Virus record (IMG/VR): IMGVR_UViG_3300048837_000984
Span: 1-64,000 of that record
Source: a virus
Length of the DNA: 64,000 bases
Direction: 5' to 3' (one strand)
Part shown: positions 25,233 through 54,389 of the stretch, piece after piece
Numbering within the stretch: position 1 is the stretch's first letter
How the letters are laid out: each line of letters opens with the position of its first letter
Translations under genes and position numbers: made by a program
Notes under the pieces: model-generated
Database searches by the model: none
The model's input: the letters and a program-made list of their open reading frames with translations, nothing else
Told to the model about the DNA's origin: nothing

Positions 25233-28200
25233 TTACAAACAGTTCTGGCGAACTGCAAGTTCGCAGGTCAAGTCGAAATCGGTATCTCGGTTATTTTTAA
25301 CAAGTTGTAGAAACGCCAGCTTGTGGGTGGCGTAGTCTGTAGCCAGTTTTTCTGCTGCTGAAGACAGACGCAAAGCGACCCGATTGCGAACTCTTGGTAC
25401 AGTGCCGTGCAGAGCAGCCTTGTACATCCGGGTTTGAAGGTTATTTCTCGCCAGAGAGAAGCCAGCCAACTGGCTAGCAATCTTGTCGCGAACCTTTTGG
25501 CTCGCCGGCCAAACCGATCGAACCAACGAGGCGACGTCCTGGGCAACCTTCTCCGGTTGAGTTTCAATGATCCGGTTGTAGATGCCTGGAAGCAAAGCAT
25601 TGGCCGAAGCAAGTAAGCCAGGCTCTGCGTTGATATCCGAAGCAATCTTGCAGTAGCTCTCTAGAGGCAGAAAAATCTTCTCTGCCGCCAGGGAAGCCAG
25701 CAAGTTTCTTGACGGCACCCGGATGTCGATCGAGGCGTGCTTCTCAAAGAACGCCAGGTTCAGGTTGCTCTCCGGTGTCGCAAATACGGCCAGCTCGACA
25801 CCAGCCAACTTTTCCAGCAGGCTAGCTGATTCCTGAGTAGCTGGGTCACAGTAACCCAGGACAACCGATAACGGAGCAGCGACGCCCATCTGCTCCGCCA
25901 GTTCAGCGCCACCGACCTTGTGCTGGCTAGCTGCCTTCAAGATGCCGGCTGTATAGGCGATTCGGTCTGCCGGTCTGGGTACGTCACTGATGTCGAAGAA
26001 ATCGACAACCGTATTTCGCGCGAACAGTTGAGTACCATCGTCGAGGACGGTTGCGATTTTGTTGAAGAGACCGCCACCAGGGCAGTCACCGCCCTCGTCT
26101 TCGCCTTTGCAGTACTCCGCACGGCTTCTGGCCTTGTTTCCGCAGACGCTGCAGATGTCGTACGGAACGTGGCAAGCCATCGAAACACCGACGTCACCAC
26201 GGGCTAGCTTTTCGAGAGTCTTTGTTGCAACGAGGCCACCATTGCGTCGAGCCGCTTCCTCGTTTCCATTAAGAGCAACGACCAGCTCAATGCGGTGCAT
26301 GGGCTCGTTGTAGCTTGATAGTTTGACGACGCCATAGCTCTTCTGTGGGTCCTTATTGCAGTTGTGGACCACCACCTCGTTTGCGACGTAGTGGTGCGGT
26401 TCTTCCGTCTCTAGGTTGTACACTGGCTCATCGATCTCGACTTCTTCGATTGCGTCGATTCTGGCCAGCCACATACCGTCGACAAAGCCGGCTGTCCGCC
26501 TCTTGAGTACTTCCCGAACGGTGTTCTTCCGGGCATCTTTAGTAATCTGCGGTGAGTAGCTAGAGCTCACAGCTACGACACCTGATCCAGATCCCTGATA
26601 AATCTTACCGTTGATTGGACAGACCACAGGCCCTGGTGGATTATCGTACTGGATCGTAGCTGGAATATTTATAGCCCGAAGAATGTCTGCGAACATATTC
26701 AGCATCTGCGGCGACGATGACCGGATGCGAAGCTGTCCCTTGTTGAACCTCGCGTTACTGACATAACCGTCTCCGTCAATGTAGGCCGTAAGGAGTTCTC
26801 TCAGTGACGCTTCGTTCCAAGTCAAGACCTTGCCGGTTAAACGCTTGGTGGATTTCACGCCCTGGATGTACTCAGACAGCTCTGCTGCTAATTCCTTGGA
26901 ACAAGCAGAAAGCATCGTACAACCAGTTTCTGCCCTCGGCGTGACGCCGACATGAAGACCGTTTGCCTTTAAGCACTCAGTTACAGACGCCAGATCTGCT
27001 GTATTCTTCGAAGAAAAGGTGAACTGGATCGAACCTTTCTTACCTAGGTAGCCCTCAGAAGCGACCCAGCCAACCAGACGAGCAAACTCTGGCTTGACAG
27101 ATACAGAGCCATGTTCTGGTCTAGGGATCAAGAGATAGTCACCAGCACACAGACTTCCCGCCTCCCTGTACTCTGGCGTAATGTTATTCAACCCGGCAAG
27201 CCATTCGCGACAATTTTGTCCGTGATCAGCTGGTCCCAACCGGCTGTACCTGTGCCGACAATGGACCTGGCTTCGGACTAGAGCAAACAAAGGGTGCTCC
27301 GGTGTCACTACCACAGGCGTCGGGATACCGCTGATTCGAAACCGCAAAGCTGTACCTTTGAAAGGCGTTTGCATAGTGCGGATGACTTTTTTAGGCCCTG
27401 CCAGGGTTGCAACCGTATCACCGGCGCGGACTTCTTCAATAGCCAGGCGCTGTCTATCAGCCATGACTATCCCAGTGCCGGCAACGAAGCAGTGATTGAG
27501 ATACAGCCGGGCATTCTTGACGAACGTATCGTGGTACTTGCGGCAGGTGTCAGTGTCGAACCCATCGCCGTTGCGGTTGCAGTTGTGGCTGTCAACGTTG
27601 GGGCCGCTATAAGTGTGATCGCCCTCAACTTCTAGGTTGAAGACATTCACCGGGCCGTCCTTTTCGATCCGAGTGACCGGCAGATACAGCCGACCGCCGC
27701 TGAAGAACGGCCGGACTTTATTTTTTTGTCCCTCGACTGGAAGGGCAACAGACCAACCTCGTCCGGTCTTCGCGCAGGACACAGCCAGATTGGTCGACCA
27801 GCAAAGACGCTGGAACCCAAGGGCAAGGCTAGCCGTCAAGTTGCTTCGCCCGGAGAAGTGCTGGAAGCACCGGTGCAACAAGACAGAACGTACCTCAAAC
27901 GGCAGGCCGCAAACCCAGGGTGGCAGCACCTTTGTCGGGCCGTTGAGGAAGTACACCCACCACTTGTCCTTGCCGCCGTATGTCGTCTTCTTGTCGTCTC
28001 CAAGCCAGTCGGCCAGCTGATAGGCCGTGTCGACCGTTAAGTCGATCGGCGCTTCGATGTTCGGACTAGTCCAAACCAGATAGTCACCCTCTCGAATATC
28101 TTCTGCCTTGATCCAGGTGTGAGGAACATAGTCGGCCTTATCCAGGTCTTTCTCACCCCGGGCCACTCGGAACGGGTGGTCTGTTGAGCAGTGCAGCGTA

Positions 28201-28589
28201 TCAACCAGACCGTTCGTACTGATCCGCAAGGAAGACTCAACCCGACGACGGAACAGGTGCGAAACGGCATAAGCGTTACCCATGGCGGACAGCGCCATGT
28301 CACCGACTTCAACAGCCTCAATGGGAATGTAACAGCCGTTTGCAAGCGCAAACGGTGTTCCGGCGGCAAAGCACCCGTAGTAGTCCGAGCTGCCCATCGC
28401 GATCAGGTGGACAGGAACTTCACCAGGCGCGAAGGCGACCTTGCGGAACTCATCAGCCAGGCTGTAACCAGCTCGCTTGATGAAGTCGCGCAAGTCATTG
28501 CCAGCAAGGCGACCAGAGGAGGCCACCTTGATCAGGCTGACTGGATCGTCACCAAAGTCCTGGGAGCCAGGAGGAATGATTTTGATCAT
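25233..28589 (-). CDS. Prohead protease-like protein interrupted by two inteins, 1118 aa
   Basis: The extein (about 477 residues after splicing) joins MGSSDYYG, then C-N-R-N-G-D-G-F ..., ARLYLNH, then C-N-K-D-P, then SYGVVKLSSY, MHRIELVV and GVSMACHVPYD with a CxxC pair. The order GD, His (366), hydrophobic strands, SxxC (Ser803) follows S78/U9-type prohead proteases with a His/Ser active site. Intein 1 covers residues 73-336 and intein 2 residues 367-743. The C-terminal about 230 residues are helical. Its position before the scaffold and capsid genes supports maturation-protease function. It overlaps the upstream gene by ATGA. Confidence 0.65.
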   Translation of the reverse strand: MIKIIPPGSQDFGDDPVSLIKVASSGRLAGNDLRDFIKRAGYSLADEFRKVAFAPGEVPVHLIAMGSSDYYGCFAAGTPFALANGCYIPIEAVEVGDMALSAMGNAYAVSHLFRRRVESSLRISTNGLVDTLHCSTDHPFRVARGEKDLDKADYVPHTWIKAEDIREGDYLVWTSPNIEAPIDLTVDTAYQLADWLGDDKKTTYGGKDKWWVYFLNGPTKVLPPWVCGLPFEVRSVLLHRCFQHFSGRSNLTASLALGFQRLCWSTNLAVSCAKTGRGWSVALPVEGQKNKVRPFFSGGRLYLPVTRIEKDGPVNVFNLEVEGDHTYSGPNVDSHNCNRNGDGFDTDTCRKYHDTFVKNARLYLNHCFVAGTGIVMADRQRLAIEEVRAGDTVATLAGPKKVIRTMQTPFKGTALRFRISGIPTPVVVTPEHPLFALVRSQVHCRHRYSRLGPADHGQNCREWLAGLNNITPEYREAGSLCAGDYLLIPRPEHGSVSVKPEFARLVGWVASEGYLGKKGSIQFTFSSKNTADLASVTECLKANGLHVGVTPRAETGCTMLSACSKELAAELSEYIQGVKSTKRLTGKVLTWNEASLRELLTAYIDGDGYVSNARFNKGQLRIRSSSPQMLNMFADILRAINIPATIQYDNPPGPVVCPINGKIYQGSGSGVVAVSSSYSPQITKDARKNTVREVLKRRTAGFVDGMWLARIDAIEEVEIDEPVYNLETEEPHHYVANEVVVHNCNKDPQKSYGVVKLSSYNEPMHRIELVVALNGNEEAARRNGGLVATKTLEKLARGDVGVSMACHVPYDICSVCGNKARSRAEYCKGEDEGGDCPGGGLFNKIATVLDDGTQLFARNTVVDFFDISDVPRPADRIAYTAGILKAASQHKVGGAELAEQMGVAAPLSVVLGYCDPATQESASLLEKLAGVELAVFATPESNLNLAFFEKHASIDIRVPSRNLLASLAAEKIFLPLESYCKIASDINAEPGLLASANALLPGIYNRIIETQPEKVAQDVASLVRSVWPASQKVRDKIASQLAGFSLARNNLQTRMYKAALHGTVPRVRNRVALRLSSAAEKLATDYATHKLAFLQLVKNNRDTDFDLTCELAVRQNCL
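26361..27491 (-). other. Intein 2 of the prohead protease, full-length with LAGLIDADG endonuclease
   Basis: 377 residues from Cys367 to His742-Asn743, followed by extein Cys744. Splicing blocks: CFVAGTGIVMAD at the start, TPEHPLF as block B, and EPVYNLETEEPHHYVANEVVVHN at the end. Endonuclease motifs are LVGWVASEGYL (about 505-515) and LLTAYIDGDGYV (599-610). The insertion point immediately follows the presumed catalytic His366. Confidence 0.9.
27582..28373 (-). other. Intein 1 of the prohead protease, endonuclease degenerate
   Basis: 264 residues from Cys73 to His335-Asn336, then extein Cys337. Block A CFAAGTPFALANG, block B STDHPFRV, block F VFNLEVEGDHTYSGP, end VDSHN. Between the blocks, ADWLGDDKK and LLHRCFQHFSG look like decayed LAGLIDADG motifs without intact acidic residues. 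Splicing residues are all present, so it probably still splices but no longer homes. Confidence 0.88.
27714..27729. repeat. AT-rich 16-mer, copy 4
   Basis: GACTTTATTTTTTTGT inside intein 1 of the protease gene, so the motif is present even within a mobile element. Confidence 0.6.
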
Positions 28590-35441: not shown

Positions 35442-38400
35442 TCACTCGCCTTCAAGGTCCGCTAGAACGGAGTCTTGCTTGGGCTTCTTTGGTGGAAGTT
35501 CCAAAGACTTGACCTTCTTGGGGTCGTATCCTTGAGTCAGACCCTCGCGACCAAAGTTTTCGGCTCTGGCCAGGGCTGGGACATAGCTGGTACCCAGTTC
35601 GTTGGACTTATCGCCGCGGTGAACGCCCTTGAGTAGGTTCTTCTGTAAGTAGCTACCCAGGAACCGAGTCATCCAATCGGGGTCATGCGTCAAGTTTTCC
35701 ATACCTCGAACCATCTCAGCACGGAATGGTGGTTCGTCTCGGTGGACTGCGATGTTATTGACGCCGAACTTCTGTAGCTGCTTGACAGTGCTGGGTCGAA
35801 TCGGCGTGCCAATCGTGTAGTGCAGGGTCGGCTTTTCCAGATACATACCTACAGCCTTCTTGGGGTCCATGATTGTGTACCCCTCACGCGGCCGGTAATC
35901 GTGTTCTAGGCGGCTGTACTGGACAACGTCGTCAGGCAAGTAGTCTTCCATTTCGTCCGACATACGGACGTGGTCGATGAGGCCGCGAGCGATAAGCTCA
36001 ACGTTCCTGCGATGCGCTGGAATTCCAGATTCCTTGTAGGCGTCCATGAAGGCGTTAACGAAGTAACGGCGACCCTCGCCGATGCCCTTGTACTGGACAA
36101 TCTCTGCGGGGTTAGGAATACCTTCACTAATGACGTCACCGGCTTCGACCTCGTCACCTGGCTTGACCTTTAGGTTGTAGCCGGTCGCAACGTAATGGTC
36201 CTGGTTATCAATCGTGATGTAGTGGCCACCTTGTGGGGCTTCACGAATGCCTGTAACCTTTCCGTCCAGTTTGGCGTGTGCGGCACCGCCCTTGAAGGTC
36301 TTTGGAACTTGGACAAGTTGGTTGACCAGCTTGAAACCGCTAACACCTTTAGCCGCGCCGGCGACACCACCTGAGTGTTTGGAGCTGTTCGAGACAATTA
36401 AACCGTTAGCTAGCACGAACAGATGGTCAGGATGGTCAACTTCAATGTCGTAGGTTGCCAGACAGCCAACTGGCTCTTGCGAACGGCGATAGTATTTACT
36501 GCAGTCCGTGTCGAGACGTGGTTTCCAGTCGGCTACAATCCGTTCCGCCGTATGTTTCTTCACCCCGTACAGAGGGATACAGTCAAGGAACTTCAAAACC
36601 TCCGGACGCCTCGTGATCGTGAGCGAGTGTAGCAAACGCTTTCGACTAGACCCCGTCGAGTGAATACGGCCAGCGTGAATCGCGAACCGTATACGTAGAA
36701 GATCGCGTAATTGCTCGACCATCCGCAGAGAAGTTGAGCCAAACTGAATATGCAGAGCTGCTGTGTCACGCGTAGAGGAGGCCGCATACAGAGAACCGTC
36801 CGTGACGTATAGCCCGGCGATTAACTGTTGTACCGACGTTTGGTCCCAGCCCCAGACTTCCTCAGGGATCACCTTATCGTGTGCGTACTTGCCGTGCATC
36901 TGGTAGAACTTTAGCTTAATCAAAGCTGGGTTACGATCGCCAGGCAGCATACGCCCTGTGGCCTTATCCTGTTTCACTGTGTCGCGGACCTGGCTAATAC
37001 GCCAGTACCCCTTCTGCCCGGCAAGAAGCTTGGCCTTGAGACCGAGTGATTGTAGGTATGGCTGAATATCTTCAATCAGCGAAGGATCGAAGCAAGACAG
37101 ATGCACGCCATGAACCGACTCAGTATAACAGCCGTCGCCCAGAAGCAACCCCAGCAGAAGCGCGTACGGTTCTGCCGAACCGCCGGTAAAGGATACCGCT
37201 GTCGTCATTTCTGCGCCATAACCGACACACTTCTCCGCCACTGGCAAGACGTCGCAAATCTTCCGCTCGTGCGGCAGGCTCCAGTAGCGGGCTGTAGCTA
37301 ACAGCTTGTGGTCTGGTGTTGACACCAGCTCGATAAATTCTCGCGTGGAAGCGACTCTGAACAGTGTCCGGACGCAGTCGCGCGGGCCGTTATTGAAGGT
37401 CCGTAAAACGCGAACCGGAAAAGTGCAACCACTACGGTCGGCACCTAGGACTTCTTCTCCGACGTTGATTGCTTCAATTGGCCGGACGCTCCAGTCCGCC
37501 ATCCTGACCAATGTTCCTTCAGCCAGGCATAGCTGGCTTTGACTGAGCGGTTCGCCAAGGGCATTTGCAGCAGCTATGCCAACAAAGTCCCCGACAGGTG
37601 GAATGTCTCCCTTTTCTCGAACACCGAGATCTCGCCCGTAGACGCCACCCTCGGGCGGGCCACCAGTCAACGGGCTGCGGACCAGAATGTCGTCAATGCC
37701 CTTAGACTTTAGGTCAGTGATGATCTTGGGGTTGAGAACAGTATTGCGCGGATAACCGCCGGTTGAAACAGCCAGCAGGGCACCCACATTGTCTGGGTCA
37801 TCGGTACTGGTTGGCAAGCCGACAGGTGTATCGGGCTCTCCATCACCGTCCCGGTCAAGCGCCGTAACTACAAGTCGGTGCGCGACTTGCGTCATCTGCT
37901 TGCTGTTCGACACGATCGCCCCATTAGCGAGCACGAACAAATGGTCAGGATGTGCTACCTCGATATCGAATGTACGTTCTACGCCAACGTAGGTCGAATC
38001 GACGAAACGCGCAAGAGAGTCAGCAAGCACAGCTGAGTAACTTCCATCCAGGTCACCCAGCTTAGCCATTTCCGGTTGGGAACAACTGTCCTTAGTGGTC
38101 AGGATCTTGTGGTCTACAGTAGCTGCAATCCCGATTAGCTCTGTGCTGGCTCCGCTACAGCGGAAGCTAAACTTGTGAACGTCGCGAGGACCGTTGTCAA
38201 AAACCGCAGACACTGGTACCGGAAAAGTGTTGCCGGCCTTGTCTGCTCCGAGGACAACGTCACCGGGTGCGATTTCCTCAATAGGCTTGCAGCTGAAGTC
38301 ACCCATACGAACTGACGTACCTTCAGCCAGACAAAAGAATCCCGCATCCTGGGTACTGTTAGAGACGGTCAGAAAGTTTTCCAGCACGAACATGTGGTCG

Positions 38401-39380
38401 GTATGATCGACTTCAAGGTCGAAGGTCTGGATCTCACCGATGGGATCGGAACCGACGAACCGCACTAGCGGTTTATCTGGCGAGTCCGCCAGAACAGCGG
38501 AGTATCGATAGTCCAGGTCGCCAAGAGCAACCATCTCTGGCTTGGCGCAACCGTCTGCCAGGGCAAGGATCTTGTGATCTTCCGTGGCATGAACCGTGAT
38601 CTCGTCTTCGAATCGGAAGCAACGGCACTTGCGGAGACCGTTGTCAAACTTGGCGACAACGGTAACGAACCCAGTGTTGCCGTTCATGTCCGCGCCAAGG
38701 ATCTTGTCCCCGGGTTTGACCAGGCAGATAGGGATGCTGAAGTAGTCCTTCAGAAACACCTTCTCATATGCAGCCAGGCAAAACTTGGTATCGACGACAC
38801 CTTTGCGAGCGCCGAACGATCCTGCAAAGTACTCGGCCGGCGACAGGCCTTCCGAGTAGCTCTTCAAAACTGGAATGGGTATAGGTCGGTTGTGGTGGTC
38901 CACGTACAGAAGGTCGCCTGCACGCAGAGAGCGCAAATTTGTCTTGTTACCGCGGGCTCCAGACAGGACCTGGTGCGCAAGCGGATTTCTCTCCAGGAGG
39001 CTCTCGTCGTAGACTCGGTTCTGGAGCGACTCCCCTTCCGACATCAGAAGGTCGACAACTTTCTGCTCTTTTTCTGTGTCAGAAAGGTCCGACCGATAGA
39101 TGTTGCCGATTTCCTTCTGCAACTTCATCTGAGCGGCCTTGGCAGCGATCGACCTTTTAAGGTGCTTGAGGCCAAACGAATTGCCACCAGTCGCATAAGA
39201 AACCTGAGAACCGATCTTGCTCAAGTCAAATACGATTTGCCGGTACTTGTCTGGATGCTTGGTTGCAACTTCCTGGAGAAGATCCTGAATGCCCTTCTTG
39301 TCAAGAATACGGTCGTACCTGCGCAAGTCAGGCGGAAGAACCTGGTTGACCAGCAGCTGTCCGACCGTAGTCTTGAGCAT
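35442..39380 (-). CDS. RNA polymerase beta-prime subunit, C-terminal part, with three inteins, 1312 aa
   Basis: After intein removal about 647 residues remain that follow bacterial RpoC from the point of the rpoC1/rpoC2 split: TTVGQLLVNQVLP, a LDKKGIQDLLQEV helix, SGARGNKTNLRSL, the bridge helix FGARKGVVDTKF-STQDAGFF-SKQMTQVAHRLVV, and the trigger loop GEPLSQSQL-SSKHSGG. His1002 matches E. coli His936, but the Arg933 position is Ser. Inteins lie at 201-341, 350-492 and 618-998. Together with the fused beta/beta-prime-N gene upstream it makes a complete two-polypeptide catalytic core. Confidence 0.92.
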   Translation of the reverse strand: MLKTTVGQLLVNQVLPPDLRRYDRILDKKGIQDLLQEVATKHPDKYRQIVFDLSKIGSQVSYATGGNSFGLKHLKRSIAAKAAQMKLQKEIGNIYRSDLSDTEKEQKVVDLLMSEGESLQNRVYDESLLERNPLAHQVLSGARGNKTNLRSLRAGDLLYVDHHNRPIPIPVLKSYSEGLSPAEYFAGSFGARKGVVDTKFCLAAYEKVFLKDYFSIPICLVKPGDKILGADMNGNTGFVTVVAKFDNGLRKCRCFRFEDEITVHATEDHKILALADGCAKPEMVALGDLDYRYSAVLADSPDKPLVRFVGSDPIGEIQTFDLEVDHTDHMFVLENFLTVSNSTQDAGFFCLAEGTSVRMGDFSCKPIEEIAPGDVVLGADKAGNTFPVPVSAVFDNGPRDVHKFSFRCSGASTELIGIAATVDHKILTTKDSCSQPEMAKLGDLDGSYSAVLADSLARFVDSTYVGVERTFDIEVAHPDHLFVLANGAIVSNSKQMTQVAHRLVVTALDRDGDGEPDTPVGLPTSTDDPDNVGALLAVSTGGYPRNTVLNPKIITDLKSKGIDDILVRSPLTGGPPEGGVYGRDLGVREKGDIPPVGDFVGIAAANALGEPLSQSQLCLAEGTLVRMADWSVRPIEAINVGEEVLGADRSGCTFPVRVLRTFNNGPRDCVRTLFRVASTREFIELVSTPDHKLLATARYWSLPHERKICDVLPVAEKCVGYGAEMTTAVSFTGGSAEPYALLLGLLLGDGCYTESVHGVHLSCFDPSLIEDIQPYLQSLGLKAKLLAGQKGYWRISQVRDTVKQDKATGRMLPGDRNPALIKLKFYQMHGKYAHDKVIPEEVWGWDQTSVQQLIAGLYVTDGSLYAASSTRDTAALHIQFGSTSLRMVEQLRDLLRIRFAIHAGRIHSTGSSRKRLLHSLTITRRPEVLKFLDCIPLYGVKKHTAERIVADWKPRLDTDCSKYYRRSQEPVGCLATYDIEVDHPDHLFVLANGLIVSNSSKHSGGVAGAAKGVSGFKLVNQLVQVPKTFKGGAAHAKLDGKVTGIREAPQGGHYITIDNQDHYVATGYNLKVKPGDEVEAGDVISEGIPNPAEIVQYKGIGEGRRYFVNAFMDAYKESGIPAHRRNVELIARGLIDHVRMSDEMEDYLPDDVVQYSRLEHDYRPREGYTIMDPKKAVGMYLEKPTLHYTIGTPIRPSTVKQLQKFGVNNIAVHRDEPPFRAEMVRGMENLTHDPDWMTRFLGSYLQKNLLKGVHRGDKSNELGTSYVPALARAENFGREGLTQGYDPKKVKSLELPPKKPKQDSVLADLEGE
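36387..37529 (-). other. Intein 3 of beta-prime-C, trigger-loop site, with endonuclease
   Basis: 381 residues from Cys618 to Asn998, then Ser999. Block A CLAEGTLVRMAD, block B STPDHKLL, end YDIEVDHPDHLFVLANGLIVSN. LAGLIDADG-type motifs are LLLGLLLGDGCY (741-752) and LIAGLYVTDGSLY (853-865). It splits the trigger loop between the positions of E. coli Met932 and Arg933. Its ends closely match the two bridge-helix inteins. Confidence 0.92.
37905..38333 (-). other. Intein 2 of beta-prime-C, bridge-helix site, mini-intein
   Basis: 143 residues from Cys350 to Asn492, then Ser493. CLAEGTSVRMGDFSCKP at the start, VDHKIL in block B, FDIEVAHPDHLFVLANGAIVSN at the end. No endonuclease. It lies in the bridge helix at the Leu796/Thr797 equivalent, eight extein residues after the previous intein and clearly paralogous to it. 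Confidence 0.92.
38358..38780 (-). other. Intein 1 of beta-prime-C, bridge-helix site, mini-intein
   Basis: 141 residues from Cys201 to Asn341, then Ser342. CLAAYEKVFL at the start, TEDHKIL in block B, FDLEVDHTDHMFVLENFLTVSN at the end. No endonuclease. It interrupts the bridge helix at the Leu788/Lys789 equivalent. The block A start is a little divergent (LAAYEK in place of LAEGT). Confidence 0.9.
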
Positions 39381-40484: not shown

Positions 40485-43400
40485 TTAATGTTCCAGCACC
40501 GAAACCTGCTGGTCGATGTCGACGTTGTTGTTGTAGAACGCGCGGATGGCGTCCTTGACGGAAGCAAAAGTCTTTTGACTCTTCTGATTGTCAACCTGAG
40601 CGGTCGCAGCCCACAGACCGCCAACGTATTCCTGGCTCGGTTTGTAGGTGTCAGCCTTGAAGGTCCGGACAGAAAACAGGTTACGACTCGGCATCATCTT
40701 GGCAACCGCCTCGTCACGAGCTTCGTCAGTTGCCGGGACGTAGTAGTTGGAGGTGTTGGATAGAATGACACCGTCCGCCGCCATAAACGTTTCCGGACCC
40801 GGAACAGTCAGGTCGTAGCCGATCTCGACCTGACCTGTCTTCTCAAAGCTCTCGACTGGATCCCAAGTAATGTAGGTGTTCGCCACTACAGTACGCCAGG
40901 TATCCCATTCCGGATGGTCAACCTTACCGCCGGGAATGAACTCGACGATCTTCTCTGCGGCCAACCGAGTGATGTGGCCGGAACTCTTTGCGTCGTGAAA
41001 AGCCGAGTACATCCCGCCGTGACCCGGCAGCCAGGTCTTCCGTTCCTTATTCGGTTTCGGAATCGCCTTGCAGATGAGGTCAGCTATCGCGGTCGGAACA
41101 GGGACGACGTCGTGACGAGCAAGCGGTCCTGACATCTCTACAGGAGCCGATTCCAGCGCAGCTAGCTTGTTCGGATGGACCATGCCACGACCGCCCCACT
41201 GGTGAATGTCGTAGTTAGACGGCGACCAGACCCAGCACGGATTGCCTGCCGGGGTCTTGGAGTTCGTGATACGTCCTCGAATGCCAAGCGACAGCGCCAG
41301 TAGAGATACCTCTTGCGTCAAGCGGAGGCTAGTACTGGTTACATTAGCCATCAGTTGTGGCTTCTTCTTGGCTTTGGAAACCGAGATACTACCGTCGGTG
41401 TCCATAATGCCCGCGAACAGTCCCAGACGAAACTCCCTAGGAGCTTTCAAGAACCACACGGGCAGGTGCTTATACTGCGACTTTTGTCCGATCAACTCAG
41501 CAAGCATGCGTGCCAGGTGGGTGCTATTCCAAGTATGCCACTGGCTCTCTCCGTAGGATGTCTTCGACTCAGTTCGCAGACAAGCCGGTCTCTTGTCCGA
41601 AAACAGTCTGCCGATGATCTGGTCGACCTTGTCGACAATCGGCTGGGTAATGCCAGACAGAACGAACGCCTTGCGTTCCTCCGGTACCCAACCGTCTCCA
41701 GCAGCGCAACCGACAAGATAGCCAAGATCTTCGTTGATCGAAATGTTGTCGAACATTCCGAACTCTCTATTTGACGCGGCGTTGGCATAACCGACCGTTG
41801 CCAGACTGGTTACCGTTGGTTCTGGTCGAGATGCTTCCGGCATCTCGACAACACGCGGAACAAGGACTCGCGCCTCAACCGCTGCTGCCGGTCGAAACCT
41901 CTTGAGCTCGAGCGTCCCTGCCGCCACACCGTACACGGCTCGGGGGTCGTCGTCAGTAAAGATCTGTCGGCCAGATCGAAGATTGACGATTTCCACCGGA
42001 CAGCCGTGATGCTTAGACCAGCGTGAGACCTGAGTCCAGGTTAGCTGTCCGTCAGGTCCGTGCGACAGAACCTTGATGCCTTCAGGAACACGATACCACT
42101 CAATTCGACCAAACTGCCCCTTAGTCTCTTCGATCTGTTCCAGATGCGGGAAGTCCTCCAGGTTGAAAACATAGAGGTCGTCGTTGTTGTCCAGGGTTGG
42201 CAGACGCAGACCAGCTGAAAACGGCATTCGATGCTCCGCTAGATTGGATTGGTCGTTTACTACAATCCAGTCTATATTATTCAGGCAGGTCCTGTCAATA
42301 GAGGCAAAAACGATTCCAATCTGTTGATCTCCATCGAAGTCCATGCCGTAAGAGCCTACAATCGTGGGATTAACCTGCAACACATTGCTCTTCGTCAGCT
42401 TCGGCCAGAACGCCATCTCGCCGTAGCGGTGAAGCACTGGAGCCCGAGTTACGACCACAGGCCGAGAGTCGATCTCACTTAGCAAGGCCTTACGAGCAAT
42501 CTCGTCCCGGTTCTTGACGTACTGCAGGGCATTCACCCGGGAAACACCGTTCATAACCAGTCGGCGGATCACGAACGGGGTGTAGACAGCCCATGCTCGG
42601 TCTTCTGGCAGGCCAACCTCGTCCATGTTCAGGTCAGGGTTTGGTGCTACCACCGCTCGGCCAACCAGGTCCATGTTGGCGCCAAGAAGCTTGTACTGCA
42701 CAGTGCTATACTTCGGCGACGACCCAAAGACCTGCTGTAGCACGCCCTTGATCTTCTTCTCCTGGTTCTTGGGGGATATAGGGTCTCCAATACCAGTTAC
42801 ACCCTTGATAGCGTTGTAAAGCGTTACGCGCTCTTCGGCTGTGTCCGCAACCTGACCCTTGATGGCGTTCAGGTTCTCGTTGGCGTCCCAGGCCTCCTTG
42901 TACAGGTAGTTCACGTCCGACACCAGCTGACCGCCGGTTCCCTGCATGATGGAAACTGGGCGGAACATGGGCGGAAGAACTGGCAGCTTGTTGATCATCC
43001 ACTCGGACGGGTGGACTCCGGTCTTCTTGGCTGCCGCCAGGTAATTGAGTCGCTTAACCGCATCGCTCCGCAAGGTCTTCTTACCCGACCGAATGTCTTC
43101 CCGGGCCTGGGTAATGCCCTGGTCCAGGTTGATGGCCTTCAGTGCGTTGTAAATGGCTTCTGGGCCGGTTGTATCGCCAAGCTTCTCCTGACCGCCAAGA
43201 ACAGCTTCGAACTTCTTCTGGGTCAACCCCAGGAGTTTGCGGATGGGTTCCTCCATGACTGGAGAAGGCATCATCTCGTGGAGCTTGATATAACTCCAGC
43301 GGTTACCGCCATGTGAGCCGGTCAGGGTCGGGTCGAACAGACCGCCCTTGATTGGCTTCATGCCGTCCTTCCAGTCAACGGTTTCCACGTTCTGGAGCTC

Positions 43401-46400
43401 ACGGCCCTCCGCCATGGAGTCAACATCTTTGTCAGTGAGGGCCATCAAGTTGAGATGGCTACCATCACGCTGAACGTTGATACCGGAAGCCTTGAGGCTG
43501 TTGATGAACTTTTCGTAGACCTGTGGAGCCTTGGGAGTGGCCGGGCGGAAACCGCTCATGAACGAGGACCAGTACTCCTGGTTCTTCTGTCCACGAATCA
43601 GCTTTGCGTCCCGAAGGACCTCCGTTGCGCCAGAAGAGAGCAGGGCGTTGCAATCCATAAGCGCGAGTCGTTTACTGTTTGATACGAGAGTCCGGCCGGC
43701 ACAATAGTTGTGCGTCTTCTCCACAGTGAAGTCGTAGACGTTGGTCTCGACGACGTTCTTTTCTGGTACGTACGCTTTGATTTCTTTGATACGCAAAGGA
43801 ACCAACCCCAGCCGGGCATCTTTGTCGATCGGTATCACGGACTGGTTCTCTTGAATAGTCCGTACGGATTCAGCGAGGAATTTTTTGCTTGCTGGAATCA
43901 CTGACCACGGCACCCAGCGGGCGATTTCTTTGATCAATTGTCGGCATAACGCAGCCGATAGACACAAAGCCCCAACAGCGTTTACGGTGCAGGGTTCTTC
44001 ATATCGCCGAGACAGCCAGGTCGCTAGTTTCTTAGCCTCTTCTCGCGTAAATCCGTTTGTTGCGATGTTGCCCGTATAGTTAACGCATCCTTCTTTCTTG
44101 GCCCGGTTCGCTATGGACCCGTCGTCAAGAACCCAGACCGCGACACTCAAGCCTGATAGTTTTTCTAACCACGCGTCCGTAACTGTTTTCTTGCGCTTAA
44201 TTCCAGAGCAACAAGTTTCTGCCAGAGGTTCGAATATATGCCTCGAGCACAGAGACACAACAGAAGAAGCAGAAGACCTGACAATCTCACCACGAATACT
44301 GCAAGGTTGAATCCGAGACGGCCTATCGTAGATGCCGGCACCTAAGCTGGATAGGATTTCGTATTTCCATCGAAGGTATGCGTTTTGCTGAATACAGTGC
44401 TCAAATGTAAACGCACTTACGGATACAGATGAGTCACCGAGCATCGAACCATACATAAGCTCCCACTGGTGTTTAGTGGGTACCAACCCAGCTGTAGCCA
44501 GGTAGTCGCCGGTACGAAGCTCACCTATCGACACCTTCTCACCGGAAGGTCGGAATACTTCGTGATTTTTAGTCACGTGCATAGCCCGACCGTCGGATGT
44601 CTTCACGGTGACGAGGGCGGCTATATTGCAGCGACGAACAAACCAGTCTACGACTCGCCCGTAAGTCCACTCATTCTTTTCGAAGTCGTATGTCTTAACT
44701 TTGACGTTGAGTCTTTTTTCGCAAATCTTACTGATGCGAACAGGACCGTCAGTTGTTGCAATCAGCTGGCGTGGAGCGAAGCACTGTCCACCTTCACCGC
44801 CGCCTTTAGCTGGCATGCCCTCCGCGTTGTAACTGCCGAGACCGCGGCCTTGAGTTTTCGATTCACTGGTGTGATGAAGTTTGAGAATGAACTGGGATCC
44901 GGTAAGGATATCCTTGATATGGCGACCACTGACAGGATCGATCAGCGTCTCGGTATCTCGAATACCGTACTTCTCAGCTTCCTTCTGTGCGTAATCCGTC
45001 CAGTCCTGGACGTCTTCACTCCAGTCGAGAACCTTGTAAGGTTTGCCGGTTTTCGCAGCAACCTTCCCAAGAATGGTCTCAATAATCTGGCTGGGGTTAC
45101 CGCGAGAGATGACGCCCAGGGGGTTCAGAAGGATTTCCATAGCTTCGCCGGCTTCGTTGTGTGGCATCTCACCGTCTGGCACAACAGCCGCAACGATACC
45201 CTTACCGCCAAACCGATTGGCCAGCTTATCACCAACAACCAGCGGCGCGTAAGCCTTGACGGCTACGGTAATGCCCTTGGCTGTCTTGGCCACGTCTGTA
45301 ACAACACCCTCGTTGTGATGGTCCCAGACCACCGAACTATCTGAAAAGGATCCGCCGTGCGATGAGTGGACTTGTCGGTGCGAGACGTCGCGCTGCCGCG
45401 CCATGAGAATCAACGGGTCGCCTTCTTTGACGACAGTACCCGGCTTGATGACACCATCGTCGTCGATCTGGTCAAGAAGTCGACGTTCGTACTTGGTTGG
45501 GAAGATACTGACGAAGTTGTTCTTTCCTTTCTTGCTGCTCTTGTCGAACTCGACACCACTCTGGTACATGTTCTCGCTACTTAATTTTTTAGCAGCCGAC
45601 TCACTGACCACGATCGCGTCTTCGTAGTTCTGCCCACGGAAGCTGATGTAGCCAACCTTCAGGTTCTTACCGAGAGCTACCGTGCCGTTCTCGTCCGTGT
45701 TGTTGGAGCGGGCCAGGAGTTGCCCAGGTCGAACCGGGTCTCCTTCCTTGACAAGCGGAGTGCTGTGGGCAAAGGTCTTTCTGGCGTACGGGAAGTTGTT
45801 GTACAGGTCGTACGTCTTGGTCTCGCCGTCCTCGTACTGGACAGTGATCGAGTCGTTATCGGCTGCTCGGACGCGACCTAACTTGTCAGCGGCGCGGACA
45901 GCCCCAAGGTACTGTCCGTAGTGCTCCTCAAAGCTGGTGTTCGGTTTGCCGGGCATACCCGATTGAACCAGCGGCGCTTCCGGATCCCGAAGCGGTAGAG
46001 CCTGGGTCAAGAAGCGGCTACCCATAGCCACGCGCTGGCCCTTGCTCGATCCCTTGAGTGGGATCATGTTTGCCAAGGGACTAAACGCATTTTCAAAATG
46101 GGGCATGACCAGCTGAACGCTCTCACGCGGCACCATCTTGGTCTGGCCGTTGACCATGGCCACGACGTGTTCCTTGCCACTCCCCATTTCGTTGGGGAAG
46201 GCGATGACGAAGTCGCTAACTTCTTGAGGCGATCGCCAAATCTCTTCACCATTCGGAGTCAAGAACTTGGCGTAGACCTTGTTGTCGGAGCCCTTGCGTG
46301 TGCTAAAGGCCAGGCGGCTGTCGACACCTGCTTTCAAGGATTCCGGGGTACGGATCGTGTCGATGTAACCCAGCTGAGACGGATGGACTGAACGAGCCTC

Positions 46401-48017
46401 ATCTGGGATTGAATCCATGGAATTACCGGACCAGTGACACTTACCGTTTCGTCGGACATAAAGCAAACCACCCGGTACGCTGGCGCAATAGACCTTGGCG
46501 TTATAGTCTTCGATAAAGAACGGATTGCTCTCTGTCGTTCTGGCGACAAGAGCCGTCTCTTTGCCATCTTGACTCACCAAGGCGGTAAACGTGTTGCCGT
46601 GAACCTCTTGCGCCTCTCGAAACATATAACTGCCGGAGGGCTCGAACGACCCGTATACCCGGTGACAGGGCGTAACCAGGTAATCTACCCGGTCGGTCGA
46701 CACTCCGAACATAGGTCCGCGGTAATCGTTTACGTGTAGCGCTGAAGCTTCCTCAAAAACTAGCTCACCGTTAACGTGACAAGCGAACCTTGTGTCTGCG
46801 GTTACTTCCGTCCAGGAAACCCAACCTTTATCGGTAAGAACATCTGTGTCGGCTGAATAGCAGGGAATACCTCCAACACCCATTCGGCTGACCCGGGTCT
46901 GCTGGTCCAGGATCTCAGCCGTGTTGATCTCTTCCAGACCTTGAGCCAATCCGCTGTCGTAGATGGCCGAATTGACCTGCTTGGTTAAAGCATTCGGCTG
47001 GATTGCGTCCAGATTGTTCTTGTACGTGGCTTTCCACAGAAGCTGGTTAAGGGCGTTTCCGGCTCGACTGACTCTCTCAGCAAACAGGTCTTCTGGGCCA
47101 AGAAAGTTCTGGAAAGCCAGATGGTCACGGTCGTCAGGGTCGGCCTGTGCTCTGGAGACGTCCAGTAGCTTCCGGGTCGCTGCCAGAGCGACGGTCTTGT
47201 CCAGGTTACGGTACTTCTGGCCCAGTGTTCGCGAAGTAACCTCTGGGTCAAACTCCATCTTTTGCATGGCAGCCGCGATGGCTTGTTGCTTTTCCTGGAA
47301 GCTGGCTTTGGGGTTGCCTCGCTTGACCAGCCTGGCGTAAATCTTGTCGATGACCTTGGGGTCGTCCTTGAGCGCATTTGCAGCGTACAGATCCTGACCC
47401 CAGGCCTCCTTCATCTCCTTGTCGGTCACACCCAGTGCGCGCATGACCGGAACCAGCGGCATGTGCGACTGGTCAATGTTGATCTTGAAAATACCCGTCT
47501 CCGGATCCAGGAAGTAGCGGTGTGACAGGCCCTTGCCCGGCATGACGTTGAAGTGTGACTCGACTTCACCGTTTTCCTTGACGCGAGTAAAGACGCCAGG
47601 CCGCAACCGCATCTGGTTGATAAGCGCGTATTCGGTGCCGTTCATGATGAACGTGCCCCGAGGCGTAAGGAACGGAACCTGGGCTACGGTAGACTTCTTC
47701 TCAGCTACCGGATTGCCGGCCGGATCCGTTAACCGCCAGGTACCACGAATACGCCGACTCAAGGTGGTACCAGAAAGGATGGCTTCCTTCTGCTTCTTGA
47801 GCGGATACTCTTCCGGGTCTTCGTAGTTCAAGTCGGCCAGACTCAGCTGGTACCTGGAGTTGGAAACCGGCTTTAGGCTACGAAACGAGTTCAGGACATT
47901 GTCGTAGATCGCGCGGCGAGTGGCGGTCACGTCTGTGAAGTCTCTCATGGTCAACGGTTTGACCGGAGAGAGGACTTCCTTGTCCTTGTCCTTGTCGTCA
48001 TCCAGGACGCTGATCAC
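40485..48017 (-). CDS. RNA polymerase beta/beta-prime-N fusion with three inteins, 2510 aa
   Basis: A GTG start. Beta features: RGTFIMNGTEYALINQM, fork-loop region VSRMGVGGIP-SMDS, GQNYEDAIVVSES (Glu799-Asp800), VGDKLANRFGGKG with Lys931 and Lys939, and GEGGQ-SKRLALMD. From about residue 1530 the chain continues as beta-prime: DGMKPIKGGLFDP, LPVLPPMFRP, NMDLVGRAVVAP and the catalytic DFDGD (1893-1897). No zinc-binding cysteine set is seen at the beta-prime start. Inteins: 386-532, 1079-1447, 1898-2421, leaving about 1470 residues. It ends where rpoC1 ends in split beta-prime genes. Confidence 0.93.
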   Translation of the reverse strand: MISVLDDDKDKDKEVLSPVKPLTMRDFTDVTATRRAIYDNVLNSFRSLKPVSNSRYQLSLADLNYEDPEEYPLKKQKEAILSGTTLSRRIRGTWRLTDPAGNPVAEKKSTVAQVPFLTPRGTFIMNGTEYALINQMRLRPGVFTRVKENGEVESHFNVMPGKGLSHRYFLDPETGIFKINIDQSHMPLVPVMRALGVTDKEMKEAWGQDLYAANALKDDPKVIDKIYARLVKRGNPKASFQEKQQAIAAAMQKMEFDPEVTSRTLGQKYRNLDKTVALAATRKLLDVSRAQADPDDRDHLAFQNFLGPEDLFAERVSRAGNALNQLLWKATYKNNLDAIQPNALTKQVNSAIYDSGLAQGLEEINTAEILDQQTRVSRMGVGGIPCYSADTDVLTDKGWVSWTEVTADTRFACHVNGELVFEEASALHVNDYRGPMFGVSTDRVDYLVTPCHRVYGSFEPSGSYMFREAQEVHGNTFTALVSQDGKETALVARTTESNPFFIEDYNAKVYCASVPGGLLYVRRNGKCHWSGNSMDSIPDEARSVHPSQLGYIDTIRTPESLKAGVDSRLAFSTRKGSDNKVYAKFLTPNGEEIWRSPQEVSDFVIAFPNEMGSGKEHVVAMVNGQTKMVPRESVQLVMPHFENAFSPLANMIPLKGSSKGQRVAMGSRFLTQALPLRDPEAPLVQSGMPGKPNTSFEEHYGQYLGAVRAADKLGRVRAADNDSITVQYEDGETKTYDLYNNFPYARKTFAHSTPLVKEGDPVRPGQLLARSNNTDENGTVALGKNLKVGYISFRGQNYEDAIVVSESAAKKLSSENMYQSGVEFDKSSKKGKNNFVSIFPTKYERRLLDQIDDDGVIKPGTVVKEGDPLILMARQRDVSHRQVHSSHGGSFSDSSVVWDHHNEGVVTDVAKTAKGITVAVKAYAPLVVGDKLANRFGGKGIVAAVVPDGEMPHNEAGEAMEILLNPLGVISRGNPSQIIETILGKVAAKTGKPYKVLDWSEDVQDWTDYAQKEAEKYGIRDTETLIDPVSGRHIKDILTGSQFILKLHHTSESKTQGRGLGSYNAEGMPAKGGGEGGQCFAPRQLIATTDGPVRISKICEKRLNVKVKTYDFEKNEWTYGRVVDWFVRRCNIAALVTVKTSDGRAMHVTKNHEVFRPSGEKVSIGELRTGDYLATAGLVPTKHQWELMYGSMLGDSSVSVSAFTFEHCIQQNAYLRWKYEILSSLGAGIYDRPSRIQPCSIRGEIVRSSASSVVSLCSRHIFEPLAETCCSGIKRKKTVTDAWLEKLSGLSVAVWVLDDGSIANRAKKEGCVNYTGNIATNGFTREEAKKLATWLSRRYEEPCTVNAVGALCLSAALCRQLIKEIARWVPWSVIPASKKFLAESVRTIQENQSVIPIDKDARLGLVPLRIKEIKAYVPEKNVVETNVYDFTVEKTHNYCAGRTLVSNSKRLALMDCNALLSSGATEVLRDAKLIRGQKNQEYWSSFMSGFRPATPKAPQVYEKFINSLKASGINVQRDGSHLNLMALTDKDVDSMAEGRELQNVETVDWKDGMKPIKGGLFDPTLTGSHGGNRWSYIKLHEMMPSPVMEEPIRKLLGLTQKKFEAVLGGQEKLGDTTGPEAIYNALKAINLDQGITQAREDIRSGKKTLRSDAVKRLNYLAAAKKTGVHPSEWMINKLPVLPPMFRPVSIMQGTGGQLVSDVNYLYKEAWDANENLNAIKGQVADTAEERVTLYNAIKGVTGIGDPISPKNQEKKIKGVLQQVFGSSPKYSTVQYKLLGANMDLVGRAVVAPNPDLNMDEVGLPEDRAWAVYTPFVIRRLVMNGVSRVNALQYVKNRDEIARKALLSEIDSRPVVVTRAPVLHRYGEMAFWPKLTKSNVLQVNPTIVGSYGMDFDGDQQIGIVFASIDRTCLNNIDWIVVNDQSNLAEHRMPFSAGLRLPTLDNNDDLYVFNLEDFPHLEQIEETKGQFGRIEWYRVPEGIKVLSHGPDGQLTWTQVSRWSKHHGCPVEIVNLRSGRQIFTDDDPRAVYGVAAGTLELKRFRPAAAVEARVLVPRVVEMPEASRPEPTVTSLATVGYANAASNREFGMFDNISINEDLGYLVGCAAGDGWVPEERKAFVLSGITQPIVDKVDQIIGRLFSDKRPACLRTESKTSYGESQWHTWNSTHLARMLAELIGQKSQYKHLPVWFLKAPREFRLGLFAGIMDTDGSISVSKAKKKPQLMANVTSTSLRLTQEVSLLALSLGIRGRITNSKTPAGNPCWVWSPSNYDIHQWGGRGMVHPNKLAALESAPVEMSGPLARHDVVPVPTAIADLICKAIPKPNKERKTWLPGHGGMYSAFHDAKSSGHITRLAAEKIVEFIPGGKVDHPEWDTWRTVVANTYITWDPVESFEKTGQVEIGYDLTVPGPETFMAADGVILSNTSNYYVPATDEARDEAVAKMMPSRNLFSVRTFKADTYKPSQEYVGGLWAATAQVDNQKSQKTFASVKDAIRAFYNNNVDIDQQVSVLEH
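40755..42326 (-). other. Intein in the beta-prime DFDGD loop, Gln-first, with endonuclease
   Basis: 524 residues from Gln1898 to Asn2421, then Thr2422. Removing it gives DFDGD-TSNYYVP, which aligns without gaps to DFDGDQMAVHVP, so the first intein residue is Gln. Block B is TDDDPRAVYG, where Asp replaces the usual His; block F/G is YDLTVPGPETFMAADGVILSN. LAGLIDADG motifs: LGYLVGCAAGDGWV (2098-2111) and LGLFAGIMDTDGS (2198-2210). Confidence 0.88.
43677..44783 (-). other. Intein in the beta C-terminal region, with endonuclease
   Basis: 369 residues from Cys1079 to Asn1447, then Ser1448. Block A CFAPRQLIATTDG, block B VTKNHEVF, end VYDFTVEKTHNYCAGRTLVSN. LMYGSMLGDSSV (1188-1199) and VAVWVLDDGSI (1292-1302) are LAGLIDADG-like. 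It interrupts the GGQ-R motif of the beta C-terminus (GEGGQ-SKRLALMD). Confidence 0.92.
45578..45593. repeat. AT-rich 16-mer, copy 8
   Basis: TACTTAATTTTTTAGC in the beta coding region, reading frame different from copies 1 and 7. Confidence 0.5.
46422..46862 (-). other. Mini-intein in beta near the fork loop
   Basis: 147 residues from Cys386 to Asn532, then Ser533. CYSADTDVLTDKGWVSW at the start, VTPCHRVYG in block B, KVYCASVPGGLLYVRRNGK near the end and HWSGN at the junction. No endonuclease. The extein GVGGIP-SMDSIPDEA corresponds to the fork-loop/rifampicin region of bacterial beta. Confidence 0.92.
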
Positions 48018-52271: not shown

Positions 52272-54389
52272 TTAGTCGGACTCCTGTTCGAGACGCCAGC
52301 GTCGCTCCTCTTCCAGTTCTTTCTTCTGGCGATTATTCCACCAGCTACGCAGAGCCATTGCTGCCGCAGCGGCACCGCCGACGCCCAGAGCACCGAGACC
52401 CCACTGAGTTGGACCCCATTTGGTTACGTCGAACATAGAAGGCGCGTTCTCTTCGGCTTTTTGCTTGGCCCTTATTTCTAGCGATCGTTTGCGCTCGGCG
52501 GTCTCTTCTATCCGCGATCTATCGTTGAGTGCCTCCTGATGCTCTCTGTCCGCCCTGTCAACTTCTTGTTTAGCCAGCCTCGCCGCTTCCTGGGCGTCTG
52601 CCGCCCGCTGGGCGTCTACTTCGCGTTGGTCCCGGAAAGCCTGTTCAAACGGCCACACAGCGCTTGTCCAAGGCTCGTCCTTTGGCGGAGCTACATCTGG
52701 CCTGTACTTGTGCCACTCCGACTCCAGGGGCGGTTCTCGAAAAGTTGGTTTTGGTGCAAACGTGTTGAGATCCTCTTGGGGAATATTTTCGAATCTCAAG
52801 AAGCCATAACGGTTGGGTGGGTTAGGCAGTTCGGCTGCCCTTCCCCGCAATTTGTACCGCCCAGCCCAATCAATCTCGTAAAGCTTCGTAAATGCGTGTG
52901 GTAGATAGAGCTTCTGTAGGCCCTTGGCCAGCGGCAGCGAAGCCACCGACTTTATCGGACTGCCGTACGTTTTTTCTACCTCGGCCAGGAATCCCGGCTG
53001 CTCGCTCGATGAGTCGCCAACAACGCTCTTGACTGCGTCCAGCAGGGGTTGCTGGTTTTCTTTCCGTTTATTGCGTAAGAACGTCTCAAGTTCTTCTTGT
53101 TTCTCGTTAACATCTCTAGTCCGGTAGTCCCGCTTGTCGACGTAACGATGGCTGCTGAAAGGAATATAAGGGTTCTTCGCCCACTGGCCGAGTGGCGTTA
53201 AATTTCTAGCCCACTGACGCAGGTTTAGAAGGTTCTGCCGCACTTGTTTCGAGTGAGTCAGTCTGGTCTCAAAATCTATCTTTCCCGACAGTCGTTCCAT
53301 GAGGCTTGGCGGCAGGTCTAGCGGGGAGTCCGGCCAATACGAAGCGGAGCCGCCGCCCTGGGCGAAGTGATACTTATCCAGCTCGGGCTCCGCTTCCGCC
53401 TCGGCGGTTGGAATGCGTGGCTTACTTGGCGGTTTTCTTGACCAGAAAAAGGCCTGCTTTTCCTCTTGCTCCACTTCCTTATACATCTTTCTGAGTTGTG
53501 CCTCTGTTCTTGGTCCAGCCGGCACGGGGGTTATTTGAGCCTCCTTCTTCCGAAGAGAGACAGAGTCGGGCAGCTTCTTCTTCGGAATGTGGATCCGGAA
53601 CCTGGTCGGCCTGTGCGTAAGGCCAACCTCGCGACCTTCCTGAGAGTCGATATCGAACTCTTCCAGCTTCATTCTCAAGAGCTTCTGCAAAAGAGAATGC
53701 TTCTCTCCATAGTTGCCCCGGTCCGATTCCTTCTTGGCTCGAATGAGATCGTCAAGAACAGAGCCCTGTTTCGGCACCCTGAGTACTCCTTGTACAGGCG
53801 TGACCGCCGGATCATAAGCAGGTGTAGTTGTGTCAACAGCTCGCGTGGCGTCTCGTTGCATAGCCTTGGGGAAGTTTTTGGCGATCTCCTGTGGCACAGG
53901 TAGCTTCGCCCCAGGTGACTTCATGCGCAGAAAATAAGTGCTCCCGTCGCCATAGGTGGGCAGCGGCTCTGGCTTTGGTCCCAGGCCCAGCCGGTGAAGG
54001 ATGTGACGAAGCGGTTGCTTGGCCATATCTGTCGCGGCACTTAAAGAATAAGTCGGCCTGGCCTCAATACTCGGCTGCTTGATGAACTTCTGTAAAGACT
54101 TCCACCCGGCGGGGGTGTAGTTCATGGGGAGATCGGTACCAGTCCAACCGCCGGGCAACCGCTTCAGGATCTCGCCAGTAAACTTGTTGTTCAGGTTTAG
54201 TTTCTGAAGAGACGGGTGGATATAGCGGTAGGAAAATGAGGGCGTGCCGCTAGGTCCCCCTGGCTTCAGGTTGGCGTATCCGACCAGCTTGTCCTTCATG
54301 AACAGGCCAAAGCCGTTGCCACCTTGCATTGGGCGGACACTGAACCGCTGACGGAAACTGATGGCGTCCTTGTCCATAGCTTCACTCAC
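52272..54389 (-). CDS. Large virion-type protein with C-terminal membrane anchor, 705 aa
   Basis: Starts with GTG overlapping the previous stop; an ATG at 54377 is an alternative. Residues about 20-80 look like a small alpha/beta domain (GFGLFMKDKLVGYANLKPGG, then IHPSLQKLNLNNKFTGEILK) that might be acetyltransferase-like, but I cannot confirm it. The middle is Pro/Arg/Lys-rich. Residues 590-660 are a long coiled coil, then one Gly/Ala-rich membrane helix (GALGVGGAAAAAMAL) and a charged tail. Probably a head-internal or ejected protein. Confidence 0.55.
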   Translation of the reverse strand: MSEAMDKDAISFRQRFSVRPMQGGNGFGLFMKDKLVGYANLKPGGPSGTPSFSYRYIHPSLQKLNLNNKFTGEILKRLPGGWTGTDLPMNYTPAGWKSLQKFIKQPSIEARPTYSLSAATDMAKQPLRHILHRLGLGPKPEPLPTYGDGSTYFLRMKSPGAKLPVPQEIAKNFPKAMQRDATRAVDTTTPAYDPAVTPVQGVLRVPKQGSVLDDLIRAKKESDRGNYGEKHSLLQKLLRMKLEEFDIDSQEGREVGLTHRPTRFRIHIPKKKLPDSVSLRKKEAQITPVPAGPRTEAQLRKMYKEVEQEEKQAFFWSRKPPSKPRIPTAEAEAEPELDKYHFAQGGGSASYWPDSPLDLPPSLMERLSGKIDFETRLTHSKQVRQNLLNLRQWARNLTPLGQWAKNPYIPFSSHRYVDKRDYRTRDVNEKQEELETFLRNKRKENQQPLLDAVKSVVGDSSSEQPGFLAEVEKTYGSPIKSVASLPLAKGLQKLYLPHAFTKLYEIDWAGRYKLRGRAAELPNPPNRYGFLRFENIPQEDLNTFAPKPTFREPPLESEWHKYRPDVAPPKDEPWTSAVWPFEQAFRDQREVDAQRAADAQEAARLAKQEVDRADREHQEALNDRSRIEETAERKRSLEIRAKQKAEENAPSMFDVTKWGPTQWGLGALGVGGAAAAAMALRSWWNNRQKKELEEERRWRLEQESD

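Follow-up and report, generated by a model that had tools for sequence, protein, structure and literature searches.

Results

A phage RNA polymerase gene interrupted twice in its bridge helix

The DNA analysed here, a 64,000-nucleotide stretch that we call the window (positions 1 to 64,000 of IMG/VR virus record IMGVR_UViG_3300048837_000984), is part of a 193,694-base metagenomic virus contig and carries a gene for the C-terminal half of the β′ subunit of a phage RNA polymerase (RNAP). The frame runs uninterrupted over 1312 codons, and its 1312-residue precursor comes down to 647 residues when three inteins, called i1, i2 and i3 here, are taken out (Table 1). The extein matches bacterial β′, the phages Arash and D69, and IMG/VR relatives. 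Two of the inteins, i1 and i2, are separated by the eight extein residues STQDAGFF and interrupt the bridge helix. A first-pass annotation had proposed this pair from the DNA itself, and its outer ends (37905-38780), the frame, the boundaries and the spacer all proved exact to the residue.

Removal of the inteins yields the chain GARKGVVDTKF-STQDAGFF-SKQMTQVAHRLVV, which aligns without a gap to bacterial β′ (8k60_D; whole match E 3e-29), with i1 following the residue that matches 860 and i2 following the one that matches 868. The bridge helix and the trigger-loop region occur in the order of a bacterial-type β′, and the third intein lies near the trigger loop, at GEPLSQSQL/SSKHSGG (the slash marks the junction). 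Neither i3 nor the three inserts in the upstream gene for β fused to the N-terminal part of β′ had been pointed out in that annotation; both polymerase frames hold three inteins or intein-like inserts each.

Table 1 Coordinates of the two polymerase genes of the window and of the elements within them
Feature	Position	Strand	Description
β′ C-terminal-half gene of phage RNAP	35442..39380	−	open frame, extein matches
N-extein	38781..39380	−	ends GARKGVVDTKF (bridge helix, first part)
Mini-intein i1	38358..38780	−	141 aa, site q200, without endonuclease
Extein spacer STQDAGFF	38334..38357	−	eight codons (24 bp), mid bridge helix
Mini-intein i2	37905..38333	−	143 aa, site q208, without endonuclease
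i2-to-i3 extein	37530..37904	−	375 bp, begins SKQMTQVAHRLVV (bridge helix end)
Intein i3	36387..37529	−	381 aa, family of i1/i2, LAGLIDADG endonuclease
C-extein	35442..36386	−	downstream of i3, including stop codon
Partner gene	40485..48017	−	RNAP β fused to β′ N-terminal part, 2510 aa precursor
Intein j1	46422..46862	−	147 aa, in partner gene
Intein j2	43677..44783	−	369 aa, LAGLIDADG, in partner gene
Insert j3	40755..42326	−	524 aa, LAGLIDADG, intein-type end LSN/T, in partner gene

Splicing residues and predicted fold of the two mini-inteins

Both i1 and i2 have every splicing residue required of a class 1 intein. In the usual block nomenclature, i1 carries Cys at position 1, TEDH in block B, FDLEV..DHMF in block F and SN in block G, with Ser at +1, and i2 carries Cys at position 1, TVDH, FDIEV..DHLF and SN, again with Ser at +1; the block F Asp and His, the C-terminal Asn and the +1 Ser of i1 all fall in FDLEVDHTDHMF..VSN/S. 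The CLA start, the DHKIL motif and the HxDHxFVL...VSN end that the first-pass annotation had listed as common to the pair are indeed found in both, and a Ser follows each. In place of the penultimate His that is common, but not universal, among inteins, both i1 and i2 have Ser, as do most of the 38 inteins compared. The only LAGLIDADG match of the frame lies in i3 (residues 740-795), which retains two LAGLIDADG stretches, so that i1 and i2 are of mini-intein size and content; as their parts all lie within one open frame, they are not split inteins.

AlphaFold2 models of i1 and i2 have the HINT fold, with pLDDT values of 96.8 and 97.2, respectively. The top Foldseek match of i1 is the NpuDnaE intein (E 7e-9) and that of i2 the Mtu RecA intein (E 2e-8), the closest solved structures to the two being the NpuDnaE, SspDnaB, Mtu RecA and Prp8 inteins. 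The input alignments had 57 and 35 rows, with large inteins trimmed to their two splicing parts; an alignment that laid single inteins across the N-part of i1 and the C-part of i2 was kept out of folding. Plain sequence comparison also relates i2 to the DnaE and RecA inteins, and it found no match for i2 in an annotated phage collection. We read i1 and i2 as two separate class 1 inteins of one phage-specific family.

The two inteins are paralogous, as had been claimed, with 74 of 147 aligned columns identical (50%) and a BLASTP E value of about 1e-41. Likeness is unevenly spread over their length. The C-terminal parts, identical at 15 of 23 residues, are the most similar of the conserved parts, and the N-terminal 30 residues agree at 13 positions. 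In segment 76-100, i1 and i2 share 18 of 25 residues, compared with at most 8 of 25 shared with any of 15 other inteins. Synonymous sites of this segment are saturated, which rules out a recent gene conversion between the two inteins, and its dN of 0.20 despite that saturation suggests that both copies are constrained. The idea that the segment is a scar of endonuclease loss was dropped, as both models place it inside the fold.

Occupancy of the insertion sites in relatives

Relatives were IMG/VR loci obtained by profile searches with exteins and inteins, the best 80 being kept out of 234 matches in one search and out of 146 in another, so that other tight pairs may exist. The 1312-residue precursor used as an IMG/VR query gave no matches, because its patterns lay in inteins and variable parts. 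Intein boundaries were found with an aligner that is allowed to jump from a Cys to the position following an Asn and requires Ser, Thr or Cys at +1; unprompted, it returned all three inteins of the window's β′ half. When it was rerun without the +1 rule and with five first residues allowed, 40 of 41 boundaries stayed the same (the exception is the q355 insert of L162), the window's own among them. Fifteen loci that duplicated a contig already in the set, and one locus without a β′ match (L151), were excluded, and 14 loci were added later. The resulting 152 contigs gave 134 distinct sequences, and removal of three that do not span q180-q345 left 131 (site numbers are positions on the window's extein). 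Loci L130-L164 entered the set through a matching intein family, so the proportion of intein-bearing genes given below is not a frequency in nature.

At least one intein is present in 28 of these 131 genes and at least two in nine, the other 103 being intein-free. Ten intein sites are spread across 160 residues: q195, q196, q199, q200 (i1), q208 (i2), q324, q333 (i3), q334, q337 and q355. Five relatives (L020, L132, L148, L152 and L220) have an intein at the i1 site and four (L126, L128, L139 and L155) at the i2 site, and no relative has both. As each site is filled singly elsewhere, each intein appears to be an independent unit. A junction-pattern scan of all IMG/VR contigs, which does recover the window, found no second i1-i2 pair; the pattern is narrow (Val third from the end of the intein, Thr second and Asp or Glu fourth in the spacer), and divergent spacers escape it.

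Tight pairs do occur at another position of the same gene. Near the trigger loop, L019 and L150 have inteins at both q324 and q333, with nine residues between them (SEPLSQAQL and SEPVTQGAL, respectively), and a pattern scan of all IMG/VR contigs for the q324-q333 junction returned exactly these two contigs. In L019, both members of the pair (3643-4833 and 4861-6000) are LAGLIDADG inteins of full size and belong to the same family, and a third intein lies in the bridge helix (2125-3264); in L150 (6001-7599), a full-size intein is paired with a mini-intein.

The search of genome contigs found no relative and thus gives no host clue. In L007, L008, L009, L011, L075, L079, L120, L126, L128, L139 and others, the reading frame of the β′ half goes on to encode a long C-terminal extension, which brings these frames to about 1060-1660 aa.

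Constraint on the spacer and on the insertion sites

Every one of the 103 distinct intein-free relatives has a gap-free bridge helix that includes the eight spacer-equivalent residues, so that the gap-free fit of the joined extein claimed by the first-pass annotation extends from 8k60_D to the whole intein-free set. R192, G206 and K210 are invariant in these genes, and G206 lies within the eight-residue piece. Considering both the universal presence of the eight residues and the invariant Gly, a product that lacks them is very probably dead.

At the i1 site, the +1 residue is Ser in all six intein-bearing genes, the window included, versus 23 of 103 intein-free genes (Fisher p 2e-4, uncorrected for relatedness), and at the i2 site in all five intein-bearing genes, again with the window, versus 22 of 103 (p 7e-4, likewise uncorrected). 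This preference is no artefact of the aligner's +1 rule, as nearly all boundaries hold without it. At the trigger-loop sites a +1 Ser is common regardless of occupancy, and the comparison is uninformative there.

Phylogeny of the inteins

The intein trees comprise 38 and 40 rows and leave deep branches open; in the 40-row tree, part of the i1 linker falls outside the kept columns. Inteins of the same site are starred as groups at q324 (L019, L149 and L160), q333 (the window, L019 and L130) and q337 (L133 and L154). A single clade of all i1-site inteins, two of which are long branches, is rejected (p-AU 0.027), and a single clade of all i2-site inteins is not (p 0.275).

Other inserts in this phage

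The insert j3 of the partner gene sits immediately after the catalytic DFDGD and splits that motif. Its first residue is placed, by alignment to Arash and D69 only, at a Gln, neither Cys nor Ser, and its block B His is apparently replaced (TDDDP); if the boundary is correct, this would be an unusual first residue for an intein.

The phage is rich in inteins beyond its polymerase genes. A 1118-aa frame (25233-28589, minus strand) contains two more, at 27582-28373 (264 aa) and 26361-27491 (377 aa, LAGLIDADG), which have 30 extein residues between them and both end in HN followed by Cys. Outside the window, intein or LAGLIDADG-like matches lie at G000 160448-161488 and 138271-138411, in frames of 1449 and 1892 aa. 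A separate 1057-aa frame (54386-57559, minus strand) joins a 2H phosphoesterase-like and a SET domain, a surprising combination for a phage protein.

Discussion

A model for the tight intein pair

Combining these findings, we propose that i1 and i2 are two independently cis-splicing mini-inteins without a regulatory role, possibly co-mobilised by i3, a reading to which we assign a probability of roughly three in four. Their anatomy suggests that each HINT domain probably folds alone while leaving the ribosome and then excises itself in cis; i1, which would be synthesised first, could fold ahead of i2. The eight-residue extein piece would be ligated on both sides, which would restore the bridge helix. 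The precursor polymerase is interrupted twice in the bridge helix, once near the trigger loop and once behind the catalytic DFDGD, and with interruptions at those sites it should stay inactive until splicing is complete. Neither i1 nor i2 can home alone, and both are probably insertions of long standing, kept because they splice. They may nevertheless spread by co-conversion with the i3 endonuclease, 375 bp away, much as inactive endonucleases of phages are described as mobilised by neighbouring ones in the accessible part of PMC10643990.

Several observations weigh against this model. The i1-i2 pair is known from a single record. The i1 branch is long, with 2.9-3.0 changes per column, and i1 has lost the usual block A GT (CLAAYEKV); taken together, these features mean that i1 may splice poorly. 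The penultimate Ser in place of the common His is a further point against, although most of the family shares it. Over residues 1-30, dN between i1 and i2 (0.66) is near dS (0.73), which could reflect relaxed constraint or, alternatively, a divergence that lowers cross-pairing, 30 codons being too few to decide. Furthermore, two HINT domains that are about half identical and lie so close together might hinder each other's folding. An error of assembly, taken up below, would also undo the model.

Alternative outcomes of splicing

The proximity of two related inteins raises the question of whether they pair with each other. The N-part of i1 could in principle pair with the C-part of i2 in an intramolecular domain swap, so that in a fraction of the protein i1, STQDAGFF and i2 would be lost as one piece, TKF would be joined to SKQ and the polymerase would be dead, a cost that divergence or folding order might limit. 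A precedent is the 'protein alternative splicing' given by an engineered NpuDnaE with a shortened linker and by an Mja TFIIB fragment (accessible portion of PMC8175363); NpuDnaE is the top structural match of i1, the linkers of i1 and i2 are short and their C-terminal residues are alike. We nonetheless consider cross-splicing unlikely as an appreciable outcome, since fewer than half of the 30 N-terminal residues are common to the two, co-translational folding of i1 before i2 exists should favour splicing in cis, and the retention of the eight residues in every intein-free relative suggests that much cross-splicing should be selected against. From what is accessible of PMC8175363, swapped intein halves can join exteins of different molecules, and the Pho PolII intein gave no mixed product; stable domain-swapped misfolding of tandem repeats, according to the consulted part of PMC4660218, requires high similarity. 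With about half of their residues identical, i1 and i2 are a fair test object for cross-pairing, nothing more. A related proposal is natural extein skipping within one molecule, in which a measurable fraction of polymerase without the eight residues, at a ratio set by folding conditions, would modulate the amount of active enzyme; we regard it as highly unlikely. That a composite intein from the start of i1 to the end of i2 might be the normal state was rejected, because all 103 intein-free relatives keep the eight residues. The first-pass annotation had also suggested a switch, whereby the tight pair would delay polymerase maturation and so time phage transcription. Such a role would suit the position of the sites in the bridge helix, the trigger-loop region and beside the catalytic DFDGD, which should render the precursor inactive, and environment-sensitive intein splicing has been published, to judge from partial accounts. 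The suggestion found no support in the distribution of the inteins: 103 of 131 distinct relatives are intein-free in this gene, the pair occurs in the window only, and the sporadic filling of its two sites (5 and 4 of 131) is as expected of mobile elements. A timing switch is thus very improbable, and for the i1/i2 pair we infer that a regulatory role is absent.

How the two inteins came to lie side by side is a separate matter. The most likely origin is one insertion after another, at two sites that the family fills singly in other viruses. A copy of i2 placed eight codons away as i1, or the reverse, instead of a separate arrival, is a serious though less probable possibility: i2 is the intein with the highest identity to i1, and the likeness of their segments 76-100 is shared with none of the other 15 inteins compared. 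That segment, however, lies inside the predicted fold of both models, so its likeness may be due to constraint; the trees leave i1 and i2 apart, an i1+i2 grouping being neither supported nor rejected (p-AU 0.157); and i2 is as near or nearer to the L128 intein of its own site (52-53%). The DNA of the i1 and i2 sites is, moreover, no more similar than background (median rank 0.44 in 111 intein-free genes), which also leaves ectopic homing through look-alike site DNA unsupported; in a handful of genes, L007, L008, L009 and L015 among them, the likeness of the two sites is in the top 1-4%. Finally, the pair might be an artefact in which a metagenome assembler merged an i1-only and an i2-only allele. 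The window does come from a metagenomic contig, some relatives have alleles with one of the two inteins and only 24 bp separate i1 from i2, but the frame is intact, one ordinary read should cover the spacer, and tight pairs are present in two further independent contigs, L019 and L150. Assembly error is possible though unlikely, and the chance we would give it is slight.

Relation to known systems

The pair offers a natural setting for testing what keeps homologous tandem HINT domains from pairing with one another and whether protein alternative splicing occurs in nature. The family, which inserts at ten sites within a 160-residue stretch of one enzyme, is useful for the study of site choice and for the engineering of very short spliced-in segments.

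The closest parallels that we found share some of these properties; as most of the papers below were accessible in part, each comparison holds for the accessible part of its source. The haloarchaeal MCM helicase likewise has several inteins per gene (MCM-a/b/c/d) at closely spaced sites in conserved active-site regions, but its MCM-a/MCM-d pair bears endonucleases, and homing interference between them was studied (PMC10643990), no distance in residues being stated there, whereas here two mini-inteins lie eight residues apart in a phage RNAP. In the second subunits of eukaryotic RNAPs, non-allelic inteins also occupy conserved sites near the active site; these are in the β-type RPA2, RPB2 and RPC2 of different species (PMC1635734), unlike the several inteins in one phage β′ gene reported here. 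Domain-swapped inteins (Aranko 2013, via PMC8175363), in which N- and C-parts of different copies splice together, resemble what cross-splicing of i1 and i2 would be; those are engineered or intermolecular, while the swap here would take place within one molecule, between tandem copies of natural origin. Mycobacteriophage TerL has seven insertion sites crowded into one catalytic domain, with no two inteins reported within one gene copy (PMC5050341). The two-gene layout of the polymerase is found in Salmonella phage Arash and Vibrio phage D69, in which, by contrast, both genes are intein-free and identity to the window's β′ half is 26-29%; Vibrio phages D148 and D181 are further entries in the hit table. 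The intein- and intron-rich crAss-like phages have a very high intein load in core genes, with one TerL gene that holds two, but differ in RNAP type and phage group, and no pair this tight is described for them (PMC7886860). The open-access literature, with most subscription papers outside this scope, yielded no report of inteins this close. Multi-intein genes are already known; a natural pair as tight as i1 and i2 is unusual.

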